In this document: piece by piece, positions 14,155-62,914 of the stretch
How positions within the stretch are numbered: position 1 is the stretch's first letter
Layout of the letters: every line of letters starts with the position of its first letter
Source of the DNA: Oscillospiraceae bacterium
GTDB taxonomy: Bacteria; Bacillota; Clostridia; Oscillospirales; Acutalibacteraceae
Length of the DNA stretch: 62,914 nucleotides
NCBI GenBank assembly: GCA_015066515.1
Contig: SVOH01000012.1
Span: 1-62,914 of the forward strand
Direction of reading: 5' to 3'
Program-made: the position numbers and the translations under genes
Notes under the pieces: generated by a model
Databases searched by the model: none
Seen by the model: the letters and a program-made list of their open reading frames with translations, nothing else
Told to the model about the DNA's origin: nothing

Positions 14155-14188
14155 CTCCGAAAATCATATAAACATATTAGTATTTCAG

Positions 14189-14349
14189 AATGAATAGCAC
14201 TCCGCATTTTATGCGACAGCAAAATAGATGTTATCTAAGTTGCCAGCAAGGTGTATGCCACAACACCCACTTCGGCATCAGCCCCTTTTTCGTGCGATTT
14301 TGGCAATCTTATTTGCACGATACTTTTGACATAATGCACCTCTATCATT
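14189..14349 (-). ncRNA. Lysine riboswitch (L box) aptamer upstream of dapA
   Basis: Read on the minus strand, the leader has the L-box conserved blocks in order: GATAGAGGTGC, AAAAGTAT, GAAAAAGGGGC, GCCGAAGTG, TTGCTGGCAAC, and GCGGAGTGCTAT. The closing P1 stem pairs AATGATAG (14342-14349) with CTATTCATT (14189-14197) with one bulge. The expected transcription start is 2-3 bases upstream of the aptamer. Lysine binding is expected to favour the terminator at 14117-14154 and turn off dapA-ddh. Confidence 0.95.
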
Positions 14350-14357
14350 TGGGTGAA

Positions 14358-50792: not shown

Positions 50793-53700
50793 GTGAAAAG
50801 AATTTTAGCAATTATTTTGTCAATTGCAATTTTGGTTATGGCATTTCCTTTAAGTGTGTTTGCCGCAGAACCTGTAGTTGTAACTGACACATGGGACGGT
50901 ACAACTACCGAACCTACTCAAACCGATGTAGACGGCAATATTATTATTAATACTGCTGAAGAATTTGCATGGCTTGCTCTTGTTGGCGGTGATACTACCG
51001 TTGACAAAACATACAAAATTGCTGATGGTATTGAATCTTTTAACATGAATGGTTTTGTTGGCATTACAGCTGATTCTACCGCAACAGATGTTAAAAATGC
51101 TACTACCACAGGAAGCGAGTATGAATGGAATAATGATAGCGCTGTTTTTAAAGGTAATTTTAATGGTAATGGTATTACCATTTATAATATTGCCGGTAAT
51201 AAGGGTGTTGCATACGGTGGCTTATTTCCAAATATGATATGTGAGAAAGAATCATCACATACTATTGAAAACGTAACTGTTAAGGCATCTGCTTTTTATG
51301 GTTATCATTTTGCTGCCGGTCTTTTAGGTAATACAAATGGTCAGTTTATCGCTAATATAAATAAGTGTGCTATAGAAAATTGTTATTTGGCATATTATTC
51401 CGGAGATGGTGGCGGAAATAAGATTGCCGCTTCAATTGTTGGTATTAGTCAAAATGTTACCGTTAACATTTCTAATTGTTTAACAATTGATAATATTATT
51501 GAATCTGCTGTAAGTGATTATTCACTTAATATTAAGGGCGGTTTTATAGGTAACGCATCTACTTGGGCACCAGTTGCTTTTAAAATTACAAATTCAGTAT
51601 CTATTGGTACATCACCATATCCTACTGTAGTAGAATCAGGAACAATAGGTGACGATATTGTTGAAGCATCTTGGACAAATGTTTATACCGATGCTGAATG
51701 TGATGTAGCAGGTATTACAACACTTGATGTTGATAAAATGCAGGGTGATGCTGCAAAGGCAAATATGACTCTTGCTTGGAATATCGATTGGTTAACAGGT
51801 GAGGATGGAGCATATCCTTCTATTCACTATGGTGAACCTATTAAAGATCCATACGTTTGGGATGGTACATATGATGAACCAACCGAAACTGATGCCGAAG
51901 GCAACATTATAATTAACACTGTTCAAGAAATGGCATGGATTGCACTTAAAGGTGGTGCAGACACCGCTAATAAAAACTATAAAGTTGCTGATGACGTTGA
52001 GTACTTCAATATGAATGGTATGTCAGGTATAAAAGTTGATTCTACCATATCTCAGGTTGAAGAAGCAGGCGATGCACGTGTTTCGGCTAATCAATACTCA
52101 GCCGATCATAACTGGCGCTCTATAGAAGACAGCAACTCATGTGCATTCCAGGGTAACTTTGACGGTAACGGTGTAACTGTTTATAACATTTATTCGTATA
52201 TGTATGCAAACGCTGGTTTGTTCCCTTGCGTTGATCCTTCGACACAAGGTACAATTACTATTAAAAATGTAATGGTAACCGCTTCTTATGTTTCAGGTTA
52301 TCACTATGCCGGTGGTGTTGTAGGTCTTGCTAATGCAAATGCAGGTACGGGTAAAAATATTATATTTGAAAATTGCGCTGCTAAAAACACTCGTATTTAT
52401 GATATGAATAAGGGTGCCGGCCATCAAAGAACGGTTGGTACAATTGTTGGTGGTTTGTCTCACAACGGTACTACATTTGACAACTGTTTAGCTGTAAATA
52501 ACAAGCTTACTTCAACAGGTGTTGTTGGCGGTTTCTTTGGTAATACCTCTAACTTCGGTTCTAATGTTACCGTAAACAACTCGGTATCTGTTGGTTCAAA
52601 TGTTGTTCCAACTGCAAATGAAATTGAACTTGGCAGTAAGGTTGTAAACACAACATATACTAACGTTTATACCGATCAGTTAGCTTCTGCTGATGGTATA
52701 ACAACCCTTACAACCGATGAAATGCAAGGTTCTGCTGCTAAAAATAATATGGCTCTTGCTTGGAATATCGATTGGTTAGCGGGTGCTGAAGGTGAATATC
52801 CTTCAATTAACTTTGGCGAACCTATTCGTGATCCATATGTTTGGGATGGTACTTTTAAAGAACCAACCGAAACTGACGCTGAAGGTAATATCATTATTAA
52901 CACTGTTCAAGAGATGGCTTGGCTTGCACTACGTGGTGGTGAGGCAACGGCAAATAAAAATTATAAAGTTGCTGACGGTGTTAAATATTTTGATATGAAT
53001 GGTATGTCTGGTATTACACTTGACTCTACTGCAACGCAGGTTAAAGATGCAACAAAAAATAAAGATTACCTATGGGCAAATGATACAAATTACTTTATGG
53101 GTAATTTTGATGGTAACGGTTTAACTGTTTATAATATTAATGCCGCTGTTGGCGGTTCATATGCATACACTGGTTTGTTTACTGTTGTAAAACCTGAAAA
53201 TGATGCAAAAGAAGTTACAATTAAAAATGTGGCTGTTGCAGCATCGCATTTTGAGGGTTATCATTATACAGGCGGTATTGTTGGTTTTGCACAAAACCAA
53301 AGTGCAAATACAGGTTGCGTAAATGTTGATTCTTGCGCAACTAAAAACTGTTATTTTAATGATACAGTAAGAGCACACAACAGTACATCCGGTCTTATTA
53401 TTGGACAAATTAATCATAACTCTGGTAATGTAAGCAACTGCTTGGCAATCAATAATATTAGTGATGCTGCAAAAATCAAAGGCGGTATTGTAGGAACGTC
53501 CTCTGATTATGTGAGTACACAAAAAATAAGTGATTGTGTTGTAATTGGTTCACTTCCTTATTCAACAGTAGTTGAAGGTTCGGGTGGTAAGATCGGAACA
53601 AGAATCCAAGATGCAACCGTTACAAATGTATATACCGATCAAACATCTACCAATGCAAAATACACTACACTTGCAAACGATAAAATGCAAGGTGCTGTTG

Positions 53701-56420
53701 CATCCATTACTATGGATACTCTTGATGATTCTATTTGGTTCTTTAACAGCACAACATATCCCGAACTTCGTGTATTCCATAATATAACCGATGGTAAATG
53801 CATAGATTGTGGTCTTGAAGTTGCTGGTGATCCATGTACATCAGGTCATACACTTGAGTCAGTTGCAGCTATTGAGGCTACAAACTTCACAGATGGTCTT
53901 TTAGCGCACGATAAATGCTCTGTTTGTGGTAAAACATTTATTGACGGTGTAGAAAAATCTGCTGAAGAACTTGTTATTCCAATGCTTGCTAAAACATGGA
54001 ACGGCACTTTTGTAGAACCTACCACAACAGATGCTGATGGAAACATTGTAATTAATACTCCTGAAGAACTTGCTTGGGTAGCTCTTCGTGGTGGCGCAGC
54101 TACACAGGGTAAAAACTACATTGTTGCAAAGGATTCTGTATTTAACCTTAACGGTATGGATGGTATTACACCATTCTCAACTGTCGAAGATGTTAAAGCA
54201 GTTGGTAGTCCTAAAGCTAATGCTTATAGTTCTGTAAATGCATGGTGCTTTGAATCAGATGATTCTTCATCTACCTATGCTTTTGCAGGTAATTTTGATG
54301 GTAACGGACTTATAGTATATAATCTATTTACATCAAAAGGCCGTGGTGCTGCAGGTTTGTTCCCTGTAATTTATCCTGTTTCAGGCGGTTCAGTTACTAT
54401 TAAAAACGTTACAATAATGGCTTCACACATTGGTGCATATCATGAGGCAGCCGGTATCGTTGGTTATGCAAACGCACCTGATGGATCCACAAGTCTTTTA
54501 ATTGAGAATTGCGCTGTTAAGAATTGTTATATTTATGATAACGATGATACCAATACTGCTACAAGCAGAACAACCGCTACACTTGTTGGTCATTTACTAC
54601 ACACTTCGACAACAGTCAACAACTGTTTAGTAGTAGATAACGAGCTTTCTGCTCAAGGTATTATCGGTGGTTTATTTGGTAACTCATCTAACTATGGTGG
54701 CGCAAATACAGTTAAGAATGTTATTTCAATCGGAACTACTGTTCAGCCATTACAGGTTGGTGTTACAATTAACGATAAAATGAATAACACCACATATGTA
54801 AATGTTTATACTGATGAAGTTGCTTCTGCAGATGGTATTACAACCCTTACAACCGATGAAATGAAGGGTGCTGCGGCTGCCGATAATATGAACCTTAACT
54901 GGAATATTAATTGGGCAGTAGGTGCCGAAGGCGAATATCCAACAATTATTATTGACAATGCTTTCTATGATGAATGGGACGGTACATTTGTAGAACCTAC
55001 CAAGACCGATGCAGAGGGTAATATCATTATTAGTACTGCAGAAGAAATGGCTTGGGTTGCACTTAGAGGCGACGTTGCTACAACCGGTAAGAACTACAAA
55101 GTAGCTGATGGCATTAAGTACTTTAACATGAACGGTATGGCAGGTATTACACTTGATTCTACCGCTACTGATGTTAAAATTGCTACAAAAGACGATACTA
55201 AGTCATGGACATTCGCTGCTGATGGCAAGGTTGGCACATTCTACGGTAACTTTGATGGTAACGGTGTAATAGTTTATAATATTTATACTAAGTCAGGTCA
55301 GGGTTATGGCGGTTTGTTCCCAGCAATTAAACCACAGTCTGCCGATTGTTTAACTATTAAAAATGTTGCTGTTGTAGCTTCGTACATTGGTGGCTATCAT
55401 TACGCAGGCGGTATTATTGGTTTAGCTGATGCACCTGATACTAGCACAAAGCTTTCGATTGAAAACATTATTGTTAAAAACAGTTATATGTATGACAATA
55501 ACGACCAAAATCCTGCTACTCAAAGAACAGCTGGTGTTGTTGTAGGTAGTCTTACACATAATGCTGCTATAATAAACAATGTATTTGCAAGTGGCAATGA
55601 AATTTCAGCAAGTGGTATTGTTGGTGGCTTGTTTGGTAATTCTTCTGCCTATGCAGCTGCTTCAACAGTTTCAAATGTTGTTTCAATTGGTACTGGTGTT
55701 GAGCCCGTTTCAGTAGACGTTACAGTTTCAGAAAAGGTTGCTAATACTGTATATGAAAATGTTTATACCAATATCGCTTCAACAAATGACGCTGTTACTA
55801 CACTTACAATTGATGAGATGAATGGTACAAATCTAACACTCGACTGGAGTGGTTGGTTTGCTACAACCGGTCTTCCTGAAATTCGTGCATTCCATGATGT
55901 AACCTCCACCGATAATGGTGACGGTACACATAGTGATCTTTGCTCAGAATGCGGTCTTGGTGGATTTAGTACTCCACACTCCTTCAAGGATGGTTTGTGT
56001 GAGCTTTGTGGTGCTGAATGTACTCACGTTGCAGGCGAACCAGTAGTTGAAAACACTGTTAATGCTACTTGTATGGTCGAGGGCTCTTACGAGCTAGTTG
56101 TATACTGTTCAGTATGTGGTGTTGAAATTTCAAGAACTACTGAAACTATTGAAATTGATCCTAATGCTCATGCATTTGATAATGATGCAGATATAGATTG
56201 TAACAACGGTTGTGGATTTGTACGTGTATCTTACGGCGACAGTAATGGCGACGGTGAAATTAACAACAAGGATATTGCGGCTATAATGCAGTATATAAAT
56301 GGTTGGGAAGTTGAAATCGATGCTCTTGCTGCTGATGTTAACTGTGATGGAAAAATTAATAACAAAGACTATGCTTTGCTTATGCAGTATATAAATGATT
56401 GGGATGTTTCTATCGGTTAA
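50793..56420 (+). CDS. Very large secreted five-repeat protein with C-terminal type I dockerin
   Basis: The 1875-residue protein starts with GTG, 7 bp after GGAGG. Residues 1-24 are a signal peptide (hydrophobic core, cleavage near VFA-AEP). Five repeats of about 325 residues begin at Trp34, Trp356, Trp684, Trp1069 and Trp1395 (W-D/N-G-T-x-x-E-P-T-x-T-D). Each has a GNFxGNG motif and GLUG-like GYHxAGG segments, so a beta-solenoid is likely. Cys-rich linkers with CxxC pairs lie near residues 1000-1065 and 1705-1810. Residues 1815-1875 form a dockerin with two Ca-binding loops (GDSNGDGEINNKD and ADVNCDGKINNKD). No glycosidase catalytic domain is recognisable. It probably joins a cell-surface cohesin assembly as a binding or structural subunit. 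Confidence 0.9.
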   Translation: MKRILAIILSIAILVMAFPLSVFAAEPVVVTDTWDGTTTEPTQTDVDGNIIINTAEEFAWLALVGGDTTVDKTYKIADGIESFNMNGFVGITADSTATDVKNATTTGSEYEWNNDSAVFKGNFNGNGITIYNIAGNKGVAYGGLFPNMICEKESSHTIENVTVKASAFYGYHFAAGLLGNTNGQFIANINKCAIENCYLAYYSGDGGGNKIAASIVGISQNVTVNISNCLTIDNIIESAVSDYSLNIKGGFIGNASTWAPVAFKITNSVSIGTSPYPTVVESGTIGDDIVEASWTNVYTDAECDVAGITTLDVDKMQGDAAKANMTLAWNIDWLTGEDGAYPSIHYGEPIKDPYVWDGTYDEPTETDAEGNIIINTVQEMAWIALKGGADTANKNYKVADDVEYFNMNGMSGIKVDSTISQVEEAGDARVSANQYSADHNWRSIEDSNSCAFQGNFDGNGVTVYNIYSYMYANAGLFPCVDPSTQGTITIKNVMVTASYVSGYHYAGGVVGLANANAGTGKNIIFENCAAKNTRIYDMNKGAGHQRTVGTIVGGLSHNGTTFDNCLAVNNKLTSTGVVGGFFGNTSNFGSNVTVNNSVSVGSNVVPTANEIELGSKVVNTTYTNVYTDQLASADGITTLTTDEMQGSAAKNNMALAWNIDWLAGAEGEYPSINFGEPIRDPYVWDGTFKEPTETDAEGNIIINTVQEMAWLALRGGEATANKNYKVADGVKYFDMNGMSGITLDSTATQVKDATKNKDYLWANDTNYFMGNFDGNGLTVYNINAAVGGSYAYTGLFTVVKPENDAKEVTIKNVAVAASHFEGYHYTGGIVGFAQNQSANTGCVNVDSCATKNCYFNDTVRAHNSTSGLIIGQINHNSGNVSNCLAINNISDAAKIKGGIVGTSSDYVSTQKISDCVVIGSLPYSTVVEGSGGKIGTRIQDATVTNVYTDQTSTNAKYTTLANDKMQGAVASITMDTLDDSIWFFNSTTYPELRVFHNITDGKCIDCGLEVAGDPCTSGHTLESVAAIEATNFTDGLLAHDKCSVCGKTFIDGVEKSAEELVIPMLAKTWNGTFVEPTTTDADGNIVINTPEELAWVALRGGAATQGKNYIVAKDSVFNLNGMDGITPFSTVEDVKAVGSPKANAYSSVNAWCFESDDSSSTYAFAGNFDGNGLIVYNLFTSKGRGAAGLFPVIYPVSGGSVTIKNVTIMASHIGAYHEAAGIVGYANAPDGSTSLLIENCAVKNCYIYDNDDTNTATSRTTATLVGHLLHTSTTVNNCLVVDNELSAQGIIGGLFGNSSNYGGANTVKNVISIGTTVQPLQVGVTINDKMNNTTYVNVYTDEVASADGITTLTTDEMKGAAAADNMNLNWNINWAVGAEGEYPTIIIDNAFYDEWDGTFVEPTKTDAEGNIIISTAEEMAWVALRGDVATTGKNYKVADGIKYFNMNGMAGITLDSTATDVKIATKDDTKSWTFAADGKVGTFYGNFDGNGVIVYNIYTKSGQGYGGLFPAIKPQSADCLTIKNVAVVASYIGGYHYAGGIIGLADAPDTSTKLSIENIIVKNSYMYDNNDQNPATQRTAGVVVGSLTHNAAIINNVFASGNEISASGIVGGLFGNSSAYAAASTVSNVVSIGTGVEPVSVDVTVSEKVANTVYENVYTNIASTNDAVTTLTIDEMNGTNLTLDWSGWFATTGLPEIRAFHDVTSTDNGDGTHSDLCSECGLGGFSTPHSFKDGLCELCGAECTHVAGEPVVENTVNATCMVEGSYELVVYCSVCGVEISRTTETIEIDPNAHAFDNDADIDCNNGCGFVRVSYGDSNGDGEINNKDIAAIMQYINGWEVEIDALAADVNCDGKINNKDYALLMQYINDWDVSIG
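50892..55880 (+). repeat. Five tandem approximately 1-kb coding repeats
   Basis: Units begin at 50892, 51858, 52842, 53997 and 54975, giving periods of 966, 984, 1155 and 978 bp. The third unit is longer because it ends with a Cys-rich insert. Units share the motifs WDGTxxEPT, GNIIINT, AWxAL, MNGMxGI, GNFDGNG and TTLTTDEM. Units 2 and 3 are the most alike, with almost the same protein sequence at their starts. The array suggests internal duplication. Confidence 0.88.
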
Positions 56421-56518: not shown

Positions 56519-58930
56519 TTATCTTATGTCGTACACACTACGTAGCTTGATGGTTTTGGGTGTACCTTCAAGTATTTTTACAGTTTTACTACCTGCATTC
56601 ATATCAAAATAGTTGTCACTTAAAATAAAGTCACTGTCTGGCGAATCTATTTCAACCGATTTTGCATAGGCATCAGCATAAACCGTAATTTCATCTCCGT
56701 TTATTTCGTAACGAAGTTTTGGATCTGCAAAGTTAAAGTGTTTAGAAACTGTAAATAAAACCGTACCTTCGCTAATAACTTTACCATTATATATAAATGA
56801 AAAACTTAAATAATTATTTTCAACATCTGTTTTGTTAAAGTCGAGGTTATTTAACCAAAATGTATCCAATGCAGGAACGGTTATATTTTCGCTTCCGGAC
56901 TGTAATATTTTACTGTCAGCCGAACGAAGCTCCCATTTAACTTCACCACTAATATCATTGGTTGTTTCGTTTGCTACTACAATGCGTGCTTCTGTTGTAT
57001 AGTCATAGACATCGCGCTGCATTACAACGTAGGGGCGGGTTGTTGTTTCGCCGATTTCTGCACAGGATATCATAACAGGAGCAAAGAAACGCTTTGCAAC
57101 GTATTGTAATGCTTTGTATCTGCCATAATAGTCAATACTTGACCAAGATGCAACAGGCCAAATATCGTTAAGTTGCCAATAAAGCGCACCCATACATCTA
57201 CCACGATGACGGCGCATATGTTCGACACCATAACGTATTGCTTCTGCCTGCAATAGCTGTGATGCGTATAGCAATGTGCCAAAATCAGCGGGGTAGAGGA
57301 AGGTATCACCCAAATAGTTTAATATCTTTTTGTTGGCACCCTTACAACGCTGATGCATTTCAAAGGTACGACTAAAAATATTTCTTTCTTCGGGTAGTGT
57401 AAACGAATTCACCGTTTTTTCACATGGGAACGATTCAAAACCAAATTCGCTTAAATATCTGAAATAGTGGTTGCGATATTCAGTAAACGGTAGTCCTCCA
57501 TGCCAAACCTGCCAATAGTGACAGTCGCCTGTATTTTCGCCACGTATATCAACAAAACCACCACCGGAACTTGGGGAAGAAGAAATATAAGGAATATAGG
57601 GACATACCTTGTCAATGATTTTAGGTATCATGCGCTCAAATATTTTAATATAAACTCTCTTGCGCGTGTTTTGACATTCGTCGCGCCACCAATATTCAAT
57701 GCCTTCTTCTATCTCATTGTTACCTGAAATAACAGCTAACGAAGCATGATGACGAATTCTTGTAAAATTTTCGGTAATCTCCACTTCAATATTATCTTGA
57801 AAAGCTTGATAACCCGGTATTGCCATACAAGCAAACATAAGATCACAAAATACAACAAGTCCGTATTCATCACAAGCATCAAAAAAATAATCATGAGGGT
57901 ATATACCGCCACCCCAAACACGAATAGCGTTAAAATTACAGTCATGGCACTGTTTTATAAGGTTGTATGTGCGCTCTTTACTGTAACGTGACATTATATT
58001 ATCTTCGGGTATATAGTCAGCGCCCATTGCAAAGAAACGAATACCATTTACCTCGTGACAAAAGCTTTCGCCCCATTGATCTTTTTCTTGAATAAGCTTT
58101 AAAGTGCGCAAGCCTATACGTTTTGTGTTACTATCTACAACTTGTCCATTTTCTACAAGCTCAACATTAAAGGTATAAAGATTTTGATTACCAAAGCCGT
58201 TAGGCCACCAAAGCTGCGGGTTCTCGATTTTTGATTCACAGTTAGCGGGAATTGTAAATTCACATCCGCAAGGAGCAGTAACCTTTACAACAATTTCTGC
58301 AATACCGTCTTTTGTTTTAACACTTGGCAACACAAAAACTTCACCGTTTTCATGACGTTGCGTTATATGTATGTCGGTTATACGGTCACTATCAACGGTT
58401 AAAAGGTAAATATCTTTCCAAATACCTGCATCCGGTAGGCGAGGACCCCAGTCCCAACCAAGCATACAGCTTGCTTTACGAAGGTGTGCCATTCCATGAA
58501 GTGAGTCACCATTACCCGGAACCGGATCTTCTTTATATTTTTCACGCAAGAATTTATTAGGAGAGGCAAACAAAAGCTTAATATCGTTTTCGCCATCTTT
58601 AAGAACTTCGGTAACATCATATTCGTATGTTCGATGCATATTATCTGTGTGTGCAATATGTTTACCATTAATTGTAATATCACAAAGTGTATCAAGTCCA
58701 TCACAGTGCAACAAAACGGGTGATTTAGTCACTGTAAAATCAAACTTTCTCGAAAAGACAAAGTCGTTTTCAAGTATTGGTGTTGCTTCAAGCTCGTTAG
58801 TGCGATAATAAGGGTCGTCCATTAACTTATTATCAAGCAAAAATGAATATACAGAACCGGGAATATTTCCATCACAGTTATAACCGCCACCGGTCATATT
58901 CCATTTACCGTTTAGACTAAACTTTTTCAT
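56519..58930 (-). CDS. Beta-mannosidase, glycoside hydrolase family 2
   Basis: From ATG 58930 (AGAGG upstream) the enzyme has 803 residues; an in-frame start at 58963 has no ribosome site. Layout is GH2: sugar-binding jelly roll (about 1-180), immunoglobulin-like domain (about 180-280), TIM barrel (about 290-620) and C-terminal beta domains. The acid/base Glu406 lies in SGNNEIEEG and the nucleophile Glu495 in YLSEFGFES. RVWGGGIYPHDYFFDACDE is a typical barrel segment of mannosidases. No signal peptide is seen, so it acts in the cytosol on imported manno-oligosaccharides or N-glycan-derived mannosides. A divergent AraC-type regulator is adjacent. Confidence 0.92.
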   Translation of the reverse strand: MKKFSLNGKWNMTGGGYNCDGNIPGSVYSFLLDNKLMDDPYYRTNELEATPILENDFVFSRKFDFTVTKSPVLLHCDGLDTLCDITINGKHIAHTDNMHRTYEYDVTEVLKDGENDIKLLFASPNKFLREKYKEDPVPGNGDSLHGMAHLRKASCMLGWDWGPRLPDAGIWKDIYLLTVDSDRITDIHITQRHENGEVFVLPSVKTKDGIAEIVVKVTAPCGCEFTIPANCESKIENPQLWWPNGFGNQNLYTFNVELVENGQVVDSNTKRIGLRTLKLIQEKDQWGESFCHEVNGIRFFAMGADYIPEDNIMSRYSKERTYNLIKQCHDCNFNAIRVWGGGIYPHDYFFDACDEYGLVVFCDLMFACMAIPGYQAFQDNIEVEITENFTRIRHHASLAVISGNNEIEEGIEYWWRDECQNTRKRVYIKIFERMIPKIIDKVCPYIPYISSSPSSGGGFVDIRGENTGDCHYWQVWHGGLPFTEYRNHYFRYLSEFGFESFPCEKTVNSFTLPEERNIFSRTFEMHQRCKGANKKILNYLGDTFLYPADFGTLLYASQLLQAEAIRYGVEHMRRHRGRCMGALYWQLNDIWPVASWSSIDYYGRYKALQYVAKRFFAPVMISCAEIGETTTRPYVVMQRDVYDYTTEARIVVANETTNDISGEVKWELRSADSKILQSGSENITVPALDTFWLNNLDFNKTDVENNYLSFSFIYNGKVISEGTVLFTVSKHFNFADPKLRYEINGDEITVYADAYAKSVEIDSPDSDFILSDNYFDMNAGSKTVKILEGTPKTIKLRSVYDIR

Positions 58931-58967
58931 TATTAAAACCTCTTTTCCAAGTTTTACTTGCATTTAT

Positions 58968-59046: not shown

Positions 59047-59826
59047 ATGGAGCTGAAAATTTTAGGAATAGATTTTCCTCACAAAAAAGGGGAGTTTTGC
59101 CAGAAGGCAAAATATCCTTTTTATACTGTTTGCTGTTTTTCTACACCATTTGTATATCTTAAAGACGGTGTTTTATATCAAGGCAATAAGGGTGATATTT
59201 TAATTAACACACCAGAAAATATTATTTTTCACGGTCCTGTTCCAAATAGTGAACATGGTTTTATAAACGATTGGATGCATATTGACGGGGACGATTTAAC
59301 AAGACTTTTGCAAAAATATGAACTACCGCTTAATACTGCTTTTAATGTTGGAGATAATTCTTTTTTTAGAAAATATATGAATCGATTAGCCAAAGAGTTT
59401 TCATCAAAAAAATCAGGATATGAGGATTTTATTGATTCGATTATTACACAACTTATTATTTCTTTGCATCGCGCCTATACCAAGACAAACTTTTATGATG
59501 AATCGTCTGAAAAAATATCAGTTGTAAAACAAGCAATAATTAAGAACCCTGGGGATAATTGGTCTTTAAAAAAAATGAGTGATTTATCGGGTTATTCAAT
59601 AAGTCGTTTCAGTGAGCTGTATAGTAATATATACGGTATTTCGCCGATTAATGACGTTTTGTTTCAAAGAATCGAGTTGGCAAAAAGATTGCTTGTTTCG
59701 GGTCAAGCATCGGTTTCATACGTTTCAAAAGCATGTGGATTTAATACTATAAATTATTTCTCTAAATTTTTCAAAAAAACTACCGGCTACAGTCCAAAAG
59801 AATATATGCATAAATTTAACGAATAG
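59047..59826 (+). CDS. AraC-family transcriptional regulator
   Basis: The 259-residue protein has an N-terminal cupin-like sensing domain (about 1-140) and a C-terminal double HTH (about 160-258). The HTH contains NWSLKKMSDLSGYSISRFSELYSNIYGISP and ASVSYVSKACGFNTINYFSKFFKKTTGYSPKEYM, the AraC signature. It is divergent from the beta-mannosidase gene with 116 bp between the start codons, so it probably controls that gene in response to a mannose-containing sugar. Its stop codon touches the stop of the element's recombinase gene. Confidence 0.92.
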   Translation: MELKILGIDFPHKKGEFCQKAKYPFYTVCCFSTPFVYLKDGVLYQGNKGDILINTPENIIFHGPVPNSEHGFINDWMHIDGDDLTRLLQKYELPLNTAFNVGDNSFFRKYMNRLAKEFSSKKSGYEDFIDSIITQLIISLHRAYTKTNFYDESSEKISVVKQAIIKNPGDNWSLKKMSDLSGYSISRFSELYSNIYGISPINDVLFQRIELAKRLLVSGQASVSYVSKACGFNTINYFSKFFKKTTGYSPKEYMHKFNE

Positions 59827-61038
59827 TTATACAAAAACAATAAAGACCCACCATAAAGGTGAGTCTTTATTATTTGGTGGAGGCGGGGGGAGTCGAACCC
59901 CCTGCTGTAATCCGGCGTCAATTTCCTTTAAGGTAATGGTTCGATTATCTCCGGAATAGTTGAAGGTCAATACTACCTTATCATCATATACAAAAACTGA
60001 GTTTAAAAAGATTTTGATCAAGCGCTTCTGACACTCGATGTCCGTATAATCCATATTGGTGAACTGATGCAGAAAATGCAGTATACGTTCTTTATTGAGT
60101 CCAAGGTTTTCTTTTAGGCGGGCTTCTGCTAAAGCAATTTTTATTTCGCCTTTCTGTTCCTCAAGCTCATCCATACGTCTCTTGGTGGCTTCATTGATAA
60201 TTCCTTGCTCAATAGCTCTCACCAAATTAGCAATGAATTTTTCAATATCTGCAAGAGCCTGTCTTAAAGACTCGGTATATGACGTTTCCGTATTTCGCTC
60301 CAAATAATACTGATACGTATTTTCAGCAATAAACTCAATCATATCTTCATCTTTTACAAGATTAATTATGTATTCTAATACAAGATTTTCAATCCATACT
60401 TGGCGAACCGGCTTTTTAGTACACAACTTTTTGCGCTGATTATGACAGTAGTAATAGTGATGACGGTTACCGGTTTTGCTTGTTCCGCTTACTCCTACCA
60501 TCATGGCACCACATTTACCGCAAAATAACTTTTCGGTTAGTAGATATTCTACTTTGGCGTTCTTGTGCGCGGCGGCACGTTGATTGTATTTTAACATTTC
60601 CTGGACCTTATAAAATGTTGCGGTATCCACGATAGGCGGAATAGCGTTCTCTAAACGCACTTCGTCTTTATAAGTATAAATACCGATATACTTTTCGTTT
60701 TTCAGCATAGTCCGCAAACTATTGTGAGTAAACGGTTTGCCCTTTAAGGTGCGGTGTCCTCTTGCATTTAATTCCCGTACTATTTGAGCAATGGTCTGTC
60801 CCTGGGCATAAAGATCAAATACAAGTTTAACGGTCGGCGCACTCTCGGGGTCAATGATAAACTTCTTGTCGGGATCGGTGAGGTATCCTAACGGTCTGTT
60901 TCCACCTGTGCTCTGTGCTTTTGCGGCGCTGGCGCGTTGACCTCTCTTGATATTTTGAGAGAGTTGTTCGGAATAATAAGCCGCCATACCTTCGATAACA
61001 GCTTCCAAAATAATACCTTCTGGTGTGTCAGGTATCAT
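59827..61038 (-). CDS. Large serine recombinase, C-terminal part (separated by a frameshift)
   Basis: The 403-residue frame holds most of a large serine integrase. It has the end of the catalytic domain and linker helix (IPDTPEGIILEAVIEGMAAYYSEQLSQNI), the recombinase domain (GNRPLGYLTDPDKKFIID and GRG-like helices), a zinc ribbon (CGKCG to YYYCHNQRKKLC, about 173-198), and a coiled coil (about 245-310). The first ATG is internal: the true beginning lies in the N-terminal fragment at 61059-61352. The last residues (QQGVRLPPPPPNNKD onward) are read from the ssrA fragment and flanking chromosome, so the C-terminus depends on the insertion site. Confidence 0.88.
   Translation of the reverse strand: MIPDTPEGIILEAVIEGMAAYYSEQLSQNIKRGQRASAAKAQSTGGNRPLGYLTDPDKKFIIDPESAPTVKLVFDLYAQGQTIAQIVRELNARGHRTLKGKPFTHNSLRTMLKNEKYIGIYTYKDEVRLENAIPPIVDTATFYKVQEMLKYNQRAAAHKNAKVEYLLTEKLFCGKCGAMMVGVSGTSKTGNRHHYYYCHNQRKKLCTKKPVRQVWIENLVLEYIINLVKDEDMIEFIAENTYQYYLERNTETSYTESLRQALADIEKFIANLVRAIEQGIINEATKRRMDELEEQKGEIKIALAEARLKENLGLNKERILHFLHQFTNMDYTDIECQKRLIKIFLNSVFVYDDKVVLTFNYSGDNRTITLKEIDAGLQQGVRLPPPPPNNKDSPLWWVFIVFV
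59839..59871. terminator. ssrA terminator, also serving the AraC gene
   Basis: AATAAAGACCCACC (59839-59852) and GGTGAGTCTTTATT (59858-59871) form a 14-bp stem with one G-T-type mismatch. On the minus strand TTGTTTTTGT follows. The stem starts 3 bases beyond the CCA end of the tmRNA fragment, as expected for the native ssrA terminator. Confidence 0.8.
59875..59905 (-). ncRNA. ssrA: 3'-terminal fragment of the tmRNA gene (ssrA), att junction of an integrated element
   Basis: On the minus strand the sequence reads as a tRNA-like 3' end: T-stem GGGGG (59898-59902), T-loop TTCGACT (59891-59897), CCCCC (59886-59890), 7-base acceptor strand CGCCTCC (59879-59885), discriminator A and CCA (59875-59877). 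The acceptor would pair with GGGGGCG, the usual tmRNA 5' end in this group. The rest of tmRNA is not present upstream; recombinase coding sequence is there instead. This is therefore the chromosomal 3' remnant left when an element integrated into ssrA. It lies inside the last 30 codons of the recombinase gene. Confidence 0.8.
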
Positions 61039-61058
61039 TTCGGCAACATAATAGATTT

Positions 61059-61352
61059 TTACACCGTTTTTTTTAGGTGATATTTGTTAAGTGCAATTTC
61101 TTCCTTGTTTCTGCCGATACGGTCAGTTTTCCATACTATCAGTGCATCAAACTTTTTGTTTGCAGCATCAGAAAGCATCAATTGGAATTGTTCGCGATTA
61201 TCGTTTCTGCCGGTCTGTGCTCGGTCGGCATATACATGAATTATTGTTAATCCGTGTTCAGCCGCATAGCGTTCAGCTTCCGCAACCTGACCTTCAATCG
61301 ACTGTTCACCTTGTCTATGACTCGAAAAACGGGCATAAACAACAGCGTTCAT
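61059..61352 (-). CDS. Large serine recombinase, N-terminal catalytic fragment (frameshifted)
   Basis: The 97-residue fragment is the N-terminus of a resolvase-type catalytic domain. The nucleophile Ser lies in YARFSSHRQ, followed by SIEGQVAEAERYA, YADRAQTGRNDNREQFQLML and LIVWKTDRIGRNKEE. It ends early in LKKTV after an A8 run (T8 on the plus strand at 61067-61074). One extra A would give LKKNGVKIYYVAEMIPDTPEG and continue into the C-terminal part. The fragment alone lacks DNA-binding domains. Whether this is an inactivating mutation, a sequencing error or a slippage site cannot be decided here. Confidence 0.87.
   Translation of the reverse strand: MNAVVYARFSSHRQGEQSIEGQVAEAERYAAEHGLTIIHVYADRAQTGRNDNREQFQLMLSDAANKKFDALIVWKTDRIGRNKEEIALNKYHLKKTV
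61067..61074 (-). other. A8 homopolymer at the recombinase frameshift
   Basis: The minus-strand sequence CTAAAAAAAACGG carries eight A residues. Adding one A joins the two recombinase frames exactly. Runs of this length are prone to replication, sequencing and transcription slippage. Confidence 0.85.
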
Positions 61353-61356
61353 TATA

Positions 61357-61971
61357 TTACTCCTTTACCGTTTCTAATCCCAAAGCCAGTCTGGCAGTAT
61401 TACGATCCTTTAAACTGGCTTTATCATATGCACGTGCAACCTCGGTTGCCCAAGCGGATAATTCGGGGATTTCGCATGAATCGTCGCCTGCCCACACTTC
61501 AAGAGGAACACCGGTTGCTTTTGTTAGTTTCAAGGCAATGTACAGAGGGGCGTACTTCATTCTGCGAGTAATGATTGATCGTAACTCTCTGTCAGTAAGC
61601 CCTGTTAATTTAACAAGGTCATCAAGCATTAGTTTCTTTAAATCGTAAGTGAGCTCAATAAAAATTTTGTAAAAAGGTTTTCCTTTTAAAGATTCGAAGA
61701 AAACTTCATTCATCTCTGTTCCGCAAACCAAATGCTCTACAGAAACATTAAGCTTTCTCGCGTATTTAACAACTTGGTCGATTTTTGGTGTGCGCTGATC
61801 AAGTTCATAACGGCTTAGGATCTGCTTTGAAGTTCCTAATTTTTTTGCAAATTCATCCTGTGTCATACCCATATCTTTACGAATTTCTCTGAGTCTTTCA
61901 CCAAAGGTGGAAGACGTTTTTTGGTCTTCGGATAAACTTTCGATAATATCTTGCATTCTCTTTTCGTTCAT
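61357..61971 (-). CDS. XRE-family transcriptional repressor of the element
   Basis: The 204-residue protein has a Cro/C1 HTH at about 22-80 (LREIRKDMGMTQDEFAKKLGTSKQILSRYELDQRTP). The C-terminal region of about 120 residues is helical with no recognised peptidase dyad. It is transcribed toward the recombinase gene (4-bp gap), with a good promoter (TATAAT) and AAGGAG before ATG 61971. The arrangement of repressor, integrase and divergent small genes is typical of integrative elements and phages. It probably represses the divergent promoter at 62081-62109. Confidence 0.86.
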   Translation of the reverse strand: MNEKRMQDIIESLSEDQKTSSTFGERLREIRKDMGMTQDEFAKKLGTSKQILSRYELDQRTPKIDQVVKYARKLNVSVEHLVCGTEMNEVFFESLKGKPFYKIFIELTYDLKKLMLDDLVKLTGLTDRELRSIITRRMKYAPLYIALKLTKATGVPLEVWAGDDSCEIPELSAWATEVARAYDKASLKDRNTARLALGLETVKE

Positions 61972-62003
61972 AATAACAACTCCTTTTTGACATCTACAAG
62001 CGT

Positions 62004-62032
62004 ATTATAGCATATCAAATCAACAAAATCAA
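62004..62032 (-). promoter_or_regulatory. sigma-A promoter of the XRE repressor/recombinase unit
   Basis: On the minus strand, TTGATT (62027-62032) and TATAAT (62004-62009) are 17 bp apart. Confidence 0.75.
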
Positions 62033-62079
62033 CACCAAATTGTTAAAACGCTGAATTTTATAAAAATAATCACCATACA

Positions 62080-62125
62080 GTTGACTTATAAAAGTGGATA
62101 TGGTAGTATAATAACAGAAGTCAAC
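62080..62125 (+). promoter_or_regulatory. Divergent element promoter flanked by inverted repeat (candidate operator)
   Basis: TTGACT (62081-62086) and TAGTAT (62104-62109) are 17 bp apart; an overlapping TATAAT lies at 62107-62112. GTTGACTT (62080-62087) and AAGTCAAC (62118-62125) form an 8-bp inverted repeat around the promoter. A second pair, AATCACCA upstream and TTGGTGATT downstream, encloses it. The XRE protein is the likely binder. Confidence 0.55.
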
Positions 62126-62168
62126 CGATTGGTGATTTTTAAAATTAACTACAACATACCGGTAATGT

Positions 62169-62366
62169 TTGAGTCAGGAGGTGATAAAAACTATTCCAGT
62201 TATTCGGATCGATCCGAAATCTATTCCCAGTATGGAGAAAAAATTACTGTGTGCCACGTTCTTGGAAGCGGTTATTCGTTTTTACAAGGATCCTAACAAC
62301 GAACTTGCTTTTCAAAGGTGGTGTGCAGAGAAAGGAGAAAATGCCTATGGATCAAAAGACGGCTGA
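62169..62366 (+). CDS. Small element-encoded protein of unknown function
   Basis: About 60-65 residues, with the core KTIPVIRIDPKSIPSMEKKL followed by LCATFLEAVIRFYKDPNNELAFQRW. The composition looks like a genuine helical small protein. The start is unclear: TTG 62169 gives 65 residues, while AGGAGGTG (62176-62183) overlaps an in-frame GTG at 62181. No ATG is in frame. The end overlaps the start of the next gene by 20 bp. I recognise no named family, but its place in front of an excisionase-like gene fits mobile element modules of Clostridia. Confidence 0.55.
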   Translation: MSQEVIKTIPVIRIDPKSIPSMEKKLLCATFLEAVIRFYKDPNNELAFQRWCAEKGENAYGSKDG

Positions 62367-62574
62367 TATGCTTCGAGAGAAATATCCCAATCATATCCCG
62401 TTGGAAGTAGCGTCAAAGTATTTGGGTGTATCGTCCAGACAATTGTCCAGGCTAATTGCGGAATGCAGAGAACCTTATTCGTTGCTTGGTGGCAATATCG
62501 GTACGAGACAGAAATATGTTCGTGTTTATACTGAACGGTTGATTGCTTATCTGCGCGGCGAACCACTAGATTAA
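62347..62574 (+). CDS. Excisionase-like HTH DNA-binding protein
   Basis: From ATG 62347 (AGGAG 9 bp upstream) the protein has 75 residues; an ATG at 62341 is only 3 bp from the ribosome site. A helix-turn-helix occupies about 17-40 (IPLEVASKYLGVSSRQLSRLIAE), followed by a wing (GTRQKYVRVYTERLIAYLRGE). This is the MerR/Xis-like layout of small excisionases or element regulators. It may direct excision together with the serine recombinase. Confidence 0.72.
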   Translation: MDQKTADMLREKYPNHIPLEVASKYLGVSSRQLSRLIAECREPYSLLGGNIGTRQKYVRVYTERLIAYLRGEPLD

Positions 62575-62638
62575 CAATCAGCAATAACCTTTCGTAAGAG
62601 AGATGTTTGTCATTCGGTAAAGCAATCAATATTAAATG

Positions 62639-62686
62639 TCAGGTGATATGAACGGGCTTTATGCTAATTCATATCACCTGATTTTG
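62639..62686 (+). terminator. Intrinsic terminator or leader hairpin before the last gene
   Basis: TCAGGTGATATGAA (62639-62652) and TTCATATCACCTGA (62668-62681) form a perfect 14-bp stem with a 15-base loop, followed by TTTTG. The short T-run makes it a weak terminator. It could also act as an attenuator for the gene at 62701. Confidence 0.55.
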
Positions 62687-62700
62687 TTAGGAGGTTTTAA

Positions 62701-62914
62701 ATGAAATTACACGATAATCAGCTTCGGCTGATACGGCATCTTATCCGTTTTAACACATTGGATTATCTAAGTTGCCTTGGGGTGTTAGATACAAAAAACA
62801 CGGGTAACAGAGTTGCTTTATCCTATACTTTTCGCCCACTTACAAAGAACGATTATATTGCTAAGAACAAGAACGGCATTGTATCAGTTCTTAAAAAAGG
62901 AAGAGATATTTTTC
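62701..62914 (+). CDS. Partial gene: winged-helix-like element protein (runs off the window)
   Basis: ATG 62701 follows TAGGAGG at good spacing, and the frame is open to the last base (71 codons seen). The protein begins MKLHDNQLRLIRHLIRFNTL and continues with DYLSCLGVLDTKNTGNRVALSY, which looks like an N-terminal winged helix of a replication- or mobilisation-type protein. Without the remainder I cannot name the family. It belongs to the integrated element. Confidence 0.6.
   Translation, partial: MKLHDNQLRLIRHLIRFNTLDYLSCLGVLDTKNTGNRVALSYTFRPLTKNDYIAKNKNGIVSVLKKGRDIF

Follow-up and report, generated by a model that had tools for sequence, protein, structure and literature searches.

The ssrA fragment and the recombinase at the edge of the window

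The DNA analysed here, called the window, comprises 62,914 nucleotides (nt) from an Oscillospiraceae bacterium (assembly GCA_015066515.1, positions 1 to 62,914 of contig SVOH01000012.1) and is the entire contig C18 of a genome (G000) that consists of 41 contigs. Near its right end the window carries the displaced 3' end of ssrA, the gene for transfer-messenger RNA (tmRNA), and beside it the recombinase gene of an integrative element. The fragment (59875..59902, minus strand) comprises T-arm, acceptor strand and CCA and is identical to the end of the intact ssrA on another contig, C39. The tRNA-like 3' end which the initial annotation had placed at 59875 is therefore real, with a length of 28 nt and not of 31. 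The terminator seen there three bases after the CCA is also found in the sequence: the hairpin of the host ssrA (59839..59871, minus strand) starts 3 nt past the CCA of the fragment, and a similar hairpin lies behind the ssrA of G004, a genome of the same genus. A 23-mer from the ssrA 3' end occurs at two sites of the genome, in the window and on C39, with up to three mismatches allowed, and the reversed pattern used as a control gave no hit. By covariance model the fragment scores weakly (19.5 bits against a cut-off of 47), and of the 12 matches listed only that on C39 passes. ARAGORN calls neither a tRNA nor a tmRNA in the window, and the sole match at Rfam gathering thresholds is a lysine riboswitch far from the fragment (14187-14352, minus strand, 83 bits). 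A chance T-arm was considered and ruled out by the exact 28 nt, the two sites of the 23-mer and the break in synteny described below.

The fragment lies inside a recombinase frame. The C-terminal part of a large serine recombinase (59827..61038, minus strand, 403 amino acids) is encoded by a frame that crosses the ssrA fragment and runs into the terminator. According to the list of open reading frames (ORFs) and Pfam, the N-terminal resolvase domain of the same protein (61059..61352, minus strand, 97 amino acids) is encoded in another frame, a split on which the initial annotation had not remarked, and the two part at a run of eight A on the minus strand (61067..61074). The Pfam domains Resolvase, Recombinase and Zn ribbon are spread over both frames and confirm the serine recombinase that had been proposed. 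It is an A118/CcrB-like large serine recombinase, for which the NCBIfam CcrB model gives a match far below its cut-off. In close relatives the recombinase frame is free of stops (509 amino acids on contig C25 of the same genome, 522 in G001). The closest named relatives come from metagenome-assembled genomes of Clostridia, including Oscillospiraceae and Agathobaculum.

The second junction and an uninterrupted relative

An intact ssrA is located on C39 (C39:2542-2887, minus strand). With 170 bits it is the only tmRNA match of the genome above the cut-off, it is also called by ARAGORN, its tag peptide is DNNKVALAA, and smpB adjoins it. The gene ends in the same 28 nt as the window fragment, and the sequence beyond has no match to G004 at that place. 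An intact ssrA had been expected to the right of the window as the other junction; it exists, on a separate contig. The suggested comparison with a related genome was also borne out, since G004 has the order smpB-ssrA-AraC-mannosidase without interruption.

Adjoining parts of a single G004 stretch are collinear with C39:2542-18963 on the one hand and with window 31967-59902 on the other, and the ssrA 3' end marks the break. SmpB is 100% identical between the two genomes over 95 amino acids. In the host flank of the window, beside the ssrA terminator, lies a gene for an AraC-family regulator (59047..59826, plus strand, Pfam HTH_AraC), whose G004 counterpart is 84% identical and occupies the same place. 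The next gene (56519..58963, minus strand), which we take from its sequence to be beta-mannosidase-like, lies in the collinear DNA and is 83% identical to the ssrA neighbour in G004. C39:1-2541 has no match in the 40-kb stretch of G004, and on C39 the element runs from 2541 down to 1. Since the block of smpB, ssrA, AraC and mannosidase genes is broken in two, one part on C39 and the other in the window, and the break coincides with the ssrA 3' end, the element sits in ssrA. This supports the earlier reading, by which the window carries the distal edge of an element in ssrA. Neither a complete, unrelated ssrA without the repeated segment nor the same recombinase tail without the tRNA-like sequence was encountered.

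A spacing rule for tRNA and tmRNA gene ends

Relatives of the recombinase within the order appear to use the NCCA end of tRNA and tmRNA genes as insertion site, crossing over inside the 3' end of the recombinase gene. In these relatives the recombinase frame ends in GTTCG..., the distance from that G to the end of NCCA is 29 nt, and an apparent host terminator follows. Among 31 recombinase ends, which include the near relatives L042, L060 and L061, a spacing of 29 was found in 25 and a spacing of 26 in 10 (these end in CCACCA), while any other spacing from 12 to 45 occurs in at most three. On the side of the restored gene, GAAC lies at +14 after the CCA in 9 of the 32 tRNA and tmRNA genes of the regions, the only other position between 0 and 39 being +31 (three cases). 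In 30 ssrA loci taken by tmRNA score, GAAC stands at +14 or +15 in eight and at other positions from 0 to 40 in two. The ssrA on C39 likewise has GAAC 14 nt past its CCA. Of 197 genomes of the order, 99 contain the signature of a restored gene; when its last motif is shifted by 3 nt, 10 of the 197 do, and the reversed pattern is found in two genomes.

For 11 of the 20 region sets examined, the two ends of an element could be identified on the same contig. The target genes are tRNA-Leu (three), tRNA-Val (two), tRNA-Pro (two), tRNA-Arg, tRNA-Lys and, in G121 and G093, tmRNA. A signature upstream of the recombinase in G071 was not counted because no tRNA was called there by ARAGORN or Rfam. The pairing of the two arms was tested with the first 9 nt of 10 hand-chosen pairs, G265a and G121 being left out; among 20000 shuffles, 13 gave a sum at least as high as that observed. 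G093 contributed a score of 2, its arm being shifted by one. In G287 the recombinase end and the ssrA arm do not pair.

The other side of the host part of C39 is bounded by a tRNA-Lys gene (C39:18886-18961) with the same signature. Here a second element of the group was noticed, represented by C39:18886-18979 together with C25:45674-46849, the latter with an open recombinase frame. The C25 recombinase is the only other one in the genome at an E value of 1e-60 or better and agrees with the tRNA-Lys arm at all 9 positions, so that the genome probably holds two such elements.

Putative attachment sites in phage and plasmid records

An inverted GTTC...GAAC pair spanning 47 nt is present at the recombinase end of the loci L040, L042, L044 and L059 and, there with CCACC in the core, of phage Lelie, in whose complete record this attP-like pair (attP being the attachment site of the element, attB that of the host) lies inside the annotated integrase gene. 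The complete, circular record of Dulem virus 37 has a GTTC...GAAC pair of 48 nt, also inside the annotated integrase gene, with CGCCTCCACCA in its middle, the sequence in which ssrA ends in the window's genome. The spacing of 47 nt, without the CCA, is found in Roseburia phage Shimadzu. Of 15 loci that were scanned, nine contain the 47-nt pair (L239, L246, L040, L042, L044, L048, L049, L050 and L059), some of them without the CCA core and L049 with extra hits. It is absent from the other six (L240-L245); of these L242 has a pair of 48 nt, and the other five phage or plasmid loci have no such pair. The circular plasmid of S. variabile (L240) has the left arm without the 47-nt arm pair, which argues against reading these sites simply as the circular form.

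In the gut phage contig MT835488 the recombinase end directly abuts an intact tmRNA gene of opposite orientation. L059 resembles a tandem junction. That L059 or the IMG/VR records are circles was rejected, as no end repeats were found in the 11 tested. The idea that a conserved C-terminal tail of the recombinase is encoded after the CCA in the circular form was also discarded: the tails in the two-armed records differ, and the first such codon on C39 is TAA.

Proposed mechanism of integration

We propose that the relatives of this large serine recombinase bring together two sites, an attP embedded in the 3' end of the gene that encodes them and the NCCA end of a tRNA or tmRNA gene, and recombine them. 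Judged from the geometry of the relatives, the crossover would fall in the acceptor strand just before the CCA. The CCA ends about 6 nt past the centre of attP; hence the partner supplies the sequence past the acceptor strand, and the RNA gene is restored. The GTTC of the T-loop of tRNA and tmRNA genes is located 24 nt from the CCA end, which is 5 nt closer to the centre than the GTTC of attP. For serine integrases Rutherford and colleagues (PMC3783163) described a zinc-ribbon motif that is shifted by 5 bp toward the crossover in attB as compared with attP. From this rule and the shift of the T-loop we infer that the T-loop GTTCR of the target gene acts as left half-site of attB, of which it would be the predicted zinc-ribbon motif.

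Weighing of the proposed reading

In summary we consider it highly probable that an element of this group inserted into ssrA, that the window and C39 carry its edges, that the T-loop served as a half-site, and that the recombinase-side half-site was later overwritten, which probably left a fixed copy. Several observations weigh against this reading. Six of the 31 recombinase ends do not have the spacing of 29, and some hits of the restored-gene signature (for example in G224 and G122) do not resemble tRNA ends. In 9 of the 20 region sets the DNA examined upstream gave no call of a matching gene, and two of these sets end close to the edge of a contig. Among the 11 two-ended cases two are not exact: the recombinase side is without a CCA in both G265a and G093, and in G093 a GAAA, shifted by one base, replaces GAAC. 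On the host side no common motif was seen in the junctions compared. The frameshift of the window recombinase falls in the run of eight A and could be an assembly error. The G004 site is not wholly empty, as a mini-insert of 189 nt lies behind its ssrA. Finally, the window and C39 are separate contigs, whose tested ends share no exact overlap of 15-399 nt; the whole element is therefore unseen, and several elements could lie between the two edges.

The last point is the basis of one alternative, by which the two edges, on C39 and on C18, come from separate elements of an array and the junction on C39 is not the work of the C18 recombinase. The arm of the window agrees with that of C39 at 7 of 9 positions, but equally well with two unrelated arms (7 of 9) and at 6 of 9 with the tRNA-Lys arm. 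The pairing is thus non-discriminating and no proof that the window recombinase made the junction on C39; it is synteny, not the arms, that links the two. The tandem-like junction at L059 also fits an array. On the other hand, the perfect match of the C25 recombinase to the tRNA-Lys arm leaves the C18 recombinase for ssrA, although more distant recombinases are still possible candidates. We regard the array as unlikely.

A departure from the spacing rule, and a further point against our reading, is the window junction itself, where GTTC lies 24 nt from the CCA end and not 29, and where all 28 nt are those of ssrA. Its closest relative, L057 (80%), has ...CAGCAGGGCGTTCGACTACCC... at 29. The ssrA of G121 shares its last 30 nt with that of C39, and the recombinase side in G121 is of the standard form. 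In G121 and G093, where both ends at ssrA are visible, the recombinase side is without the ssrA T-arm, and the window junction is therefore probably not the original product of the crossover. Recombination at the core leaves this half-site unaltered, since it belongs to the recombinase side of the crossover; a later event is therefore the likeliest cause. The half-site was probably overwritten by the ssrA T-arm through a short recombination or gene conversion at the shared GTTCGACT; another possible later event at GTTCGACT would be fusion to an ssrA fragment left behind by a tyrosine-integrase island. Overwriting would rebuild an attB-like site at the far edge. Edited and frameshifted, the element of the window is probably fixed in place and would be unable to excise. 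A sister copy with the standard left half-site was not found: there are no exact matches in the viral contigs, and in 394 genomes only the window itself was hit.

Two other explanations start from the same 28 nt. The fragment could have been left by a former tyrosine-integrase island in an array at ssrA, with a deletion that joined the serine element at GTTCGACT. An island of this kind exists in G042 (L144, G042:C1), where 12.5 kb are inserted at ssrA, a Phage_integrase gene lies beside ssrA and the displaced end is one C longer; the switch point of the window, moreover, falls within sequence common to ssrA and the L057 recombinase end. The island of G042 also carries an ORF of 2976 amino acids. 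We nevertheless hold this origin to be rather unlikely, because the C39 edge has a serine-type arm directly behind ssrA and no tyrosine integrase (Phage_integrase) was detected among the tested ORFs of the element (window 59827-62913 and C39:2-2441), whose middle is unseen. The remaining explanation, that the attP of the element had captured the ssrA end earlier and that the window junction is a normal product, appears quite improbable to us. A block of identity of 28 nt is of normal size for many elements in tRNA genes. The DsiB islands of Dehalococcoides have a 20-bp ssrA repeat with the crossover placed in the T-loop (PMC3146451). No other recombinase end that was compared shows an ssrA end, however, and G121 and G093, although inserted in ssrA, are without the T-arm. 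A captured attP would also resemble attL, and serine integrases are reported to pair only attP with attB when unaided (PMC3783163).

Further genes and observations

The recombinase is followed by a gene for an XRE/HTH_3 repressor (61357..61971, minus strand). Pfam confirms this earlier assignment, and the homologue in G001, which is 61% identical, adjoins a recombinase as well. The next ORF (62251..62574, plus strand) had been described as an excisionase-like helix-turn-helix protein. Neither Pfam nor NCBIfam gives a match for it; a small excisionase or DNA-binding protein without family support is possible, and a similar ORF is found in the same block on C25. The last ORF (62701..62913, plus strand), a gene of the element, is cut by the contig end and has homologues of 358 amino acids at the same place in C25 and G001. 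At the other edge, beside the restored ssrA, C39:608-2441 encodes a trypsin-like protein and a Nuc_deoxyrib_tr-like/TIR-effector-like protein, the Pfam match of the latter being below the cut-off; these could be cargo of the element with a role in defence. On the host side of the window, the ORF list contains what, judged from its sequence, is presumably a secreted repeat protein of 1875 amino acids (50793-56420) with a dockerin-like repeat pair at its end.

The mini-insert of G004 (L142, 670-859) is not the only one. L016 and L165 also have an insert directly behind ssrA, and the three inserts measure 189-205 nt. Each carries, after the terminator, an exact inverted copy of the T-arm of the adjoining gene, and at its end the ssrA 3' end is repeated. 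An inverted T-arm of the own variant was found in 4 of 39 loci, and other variants in none of 234 tests. In L147 (G044:C1, 536-2379) a distant serine recombinase is convergent to an intact ssrA, and the match ends 12 nt from the ssrA end.

Comparison with known systems

On balance we favour the view that gut Clostridia harbour a large group of serine recombinases for which the universal T-loop GTTCR is the attB half-site and NCCA the place of crossover, so that one attP design in the 3' end of the recombinase gene would suit many tRNA genes as well as ssrA. Its footprint would be present in about half of the genomes sampled from the order, and the window would show how an element becomes fixed when the host T-arm replaces its attP half-site. 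A fixed spacing would make it easier to locate the sites at which gut prophages and islands without identified ends are attached, and it would provide serine integrases with matched attP and attB sites for tRNA-gene targets. It would further hint at the reason for which integrases of the serine and tyrosine types have come to use the same gene ends. A literature search that covered few subscription papers revealed neither a tRNA-wide group of serine recombinases nor use of the T-loop of tRNA genes.

The integrase of Listeria phage A118 reportedly targets comK and not a tRNA or tmRNA gene, in which it differs from the group of the window. Its sequence (PDB 4kis, 6dnw) matches residues 35-357 of the 403-amino-acid part. 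A further likeness would be the position of the zinc-ribbon motif, which comes 5 bp nearer to the crossover in attB than it does in attP.

Serine integrases at ssrA had been called less familiar than tyrosine integrases in the initial annotation, yet a precedent is published: in ssrA islands of Dehalococcoides the 3' end of the gene for the serine recombinase DsiB overlaps the att site (PMC3146451). As in the window, a CcrB-like serine recombinase, an insertion in ssrA, a gene end that extends over the att site and a displaced ssrA end (20 bp in the case of DsiB) come together. As published, DsiB has a small companion recombinase, DsiA, and its insertion point is placed in the T-loop, whereas a single recombinase is seen here, with an XRE repressor as neighbour in the visible part. 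In the relatives of the window recombinase the crossover is near the CCA and tRNA genes are targeted too. The Islander paper of 2014 stated that serine integrases were not known to target tRNA or tmRNA genes (PMC4383910), although DsiB had already been described at tmRNA.

Tyrosine-integrase islands at ssrA, as treated by Islander (PMC4383910) and as seen in G042, leave the same restored gene and displaced fragment. Their recombinase is unrelated, and in G042 the integrase adjoins the restored ssrA. Streptococcal integrative and conjugative elements with a single serine integrase in rumA (PMC4701971) likewise exchange the 3' ends of integrase and target; there a protein gene is altered, here an RNA gene is restored. 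Among the Faecalibacterium prophages with large serine recombinases (PMC5883640), the recombinases of Toutatis and Lelie match at 35%. End repeats could be identified in that paper only for prophages with tyrosine integrases. The record of Toutatis reads into an apparent tRNA end, and that of Lelie carries the 47-nt GTTC..GAAC pair at the end of its recombinase gene.

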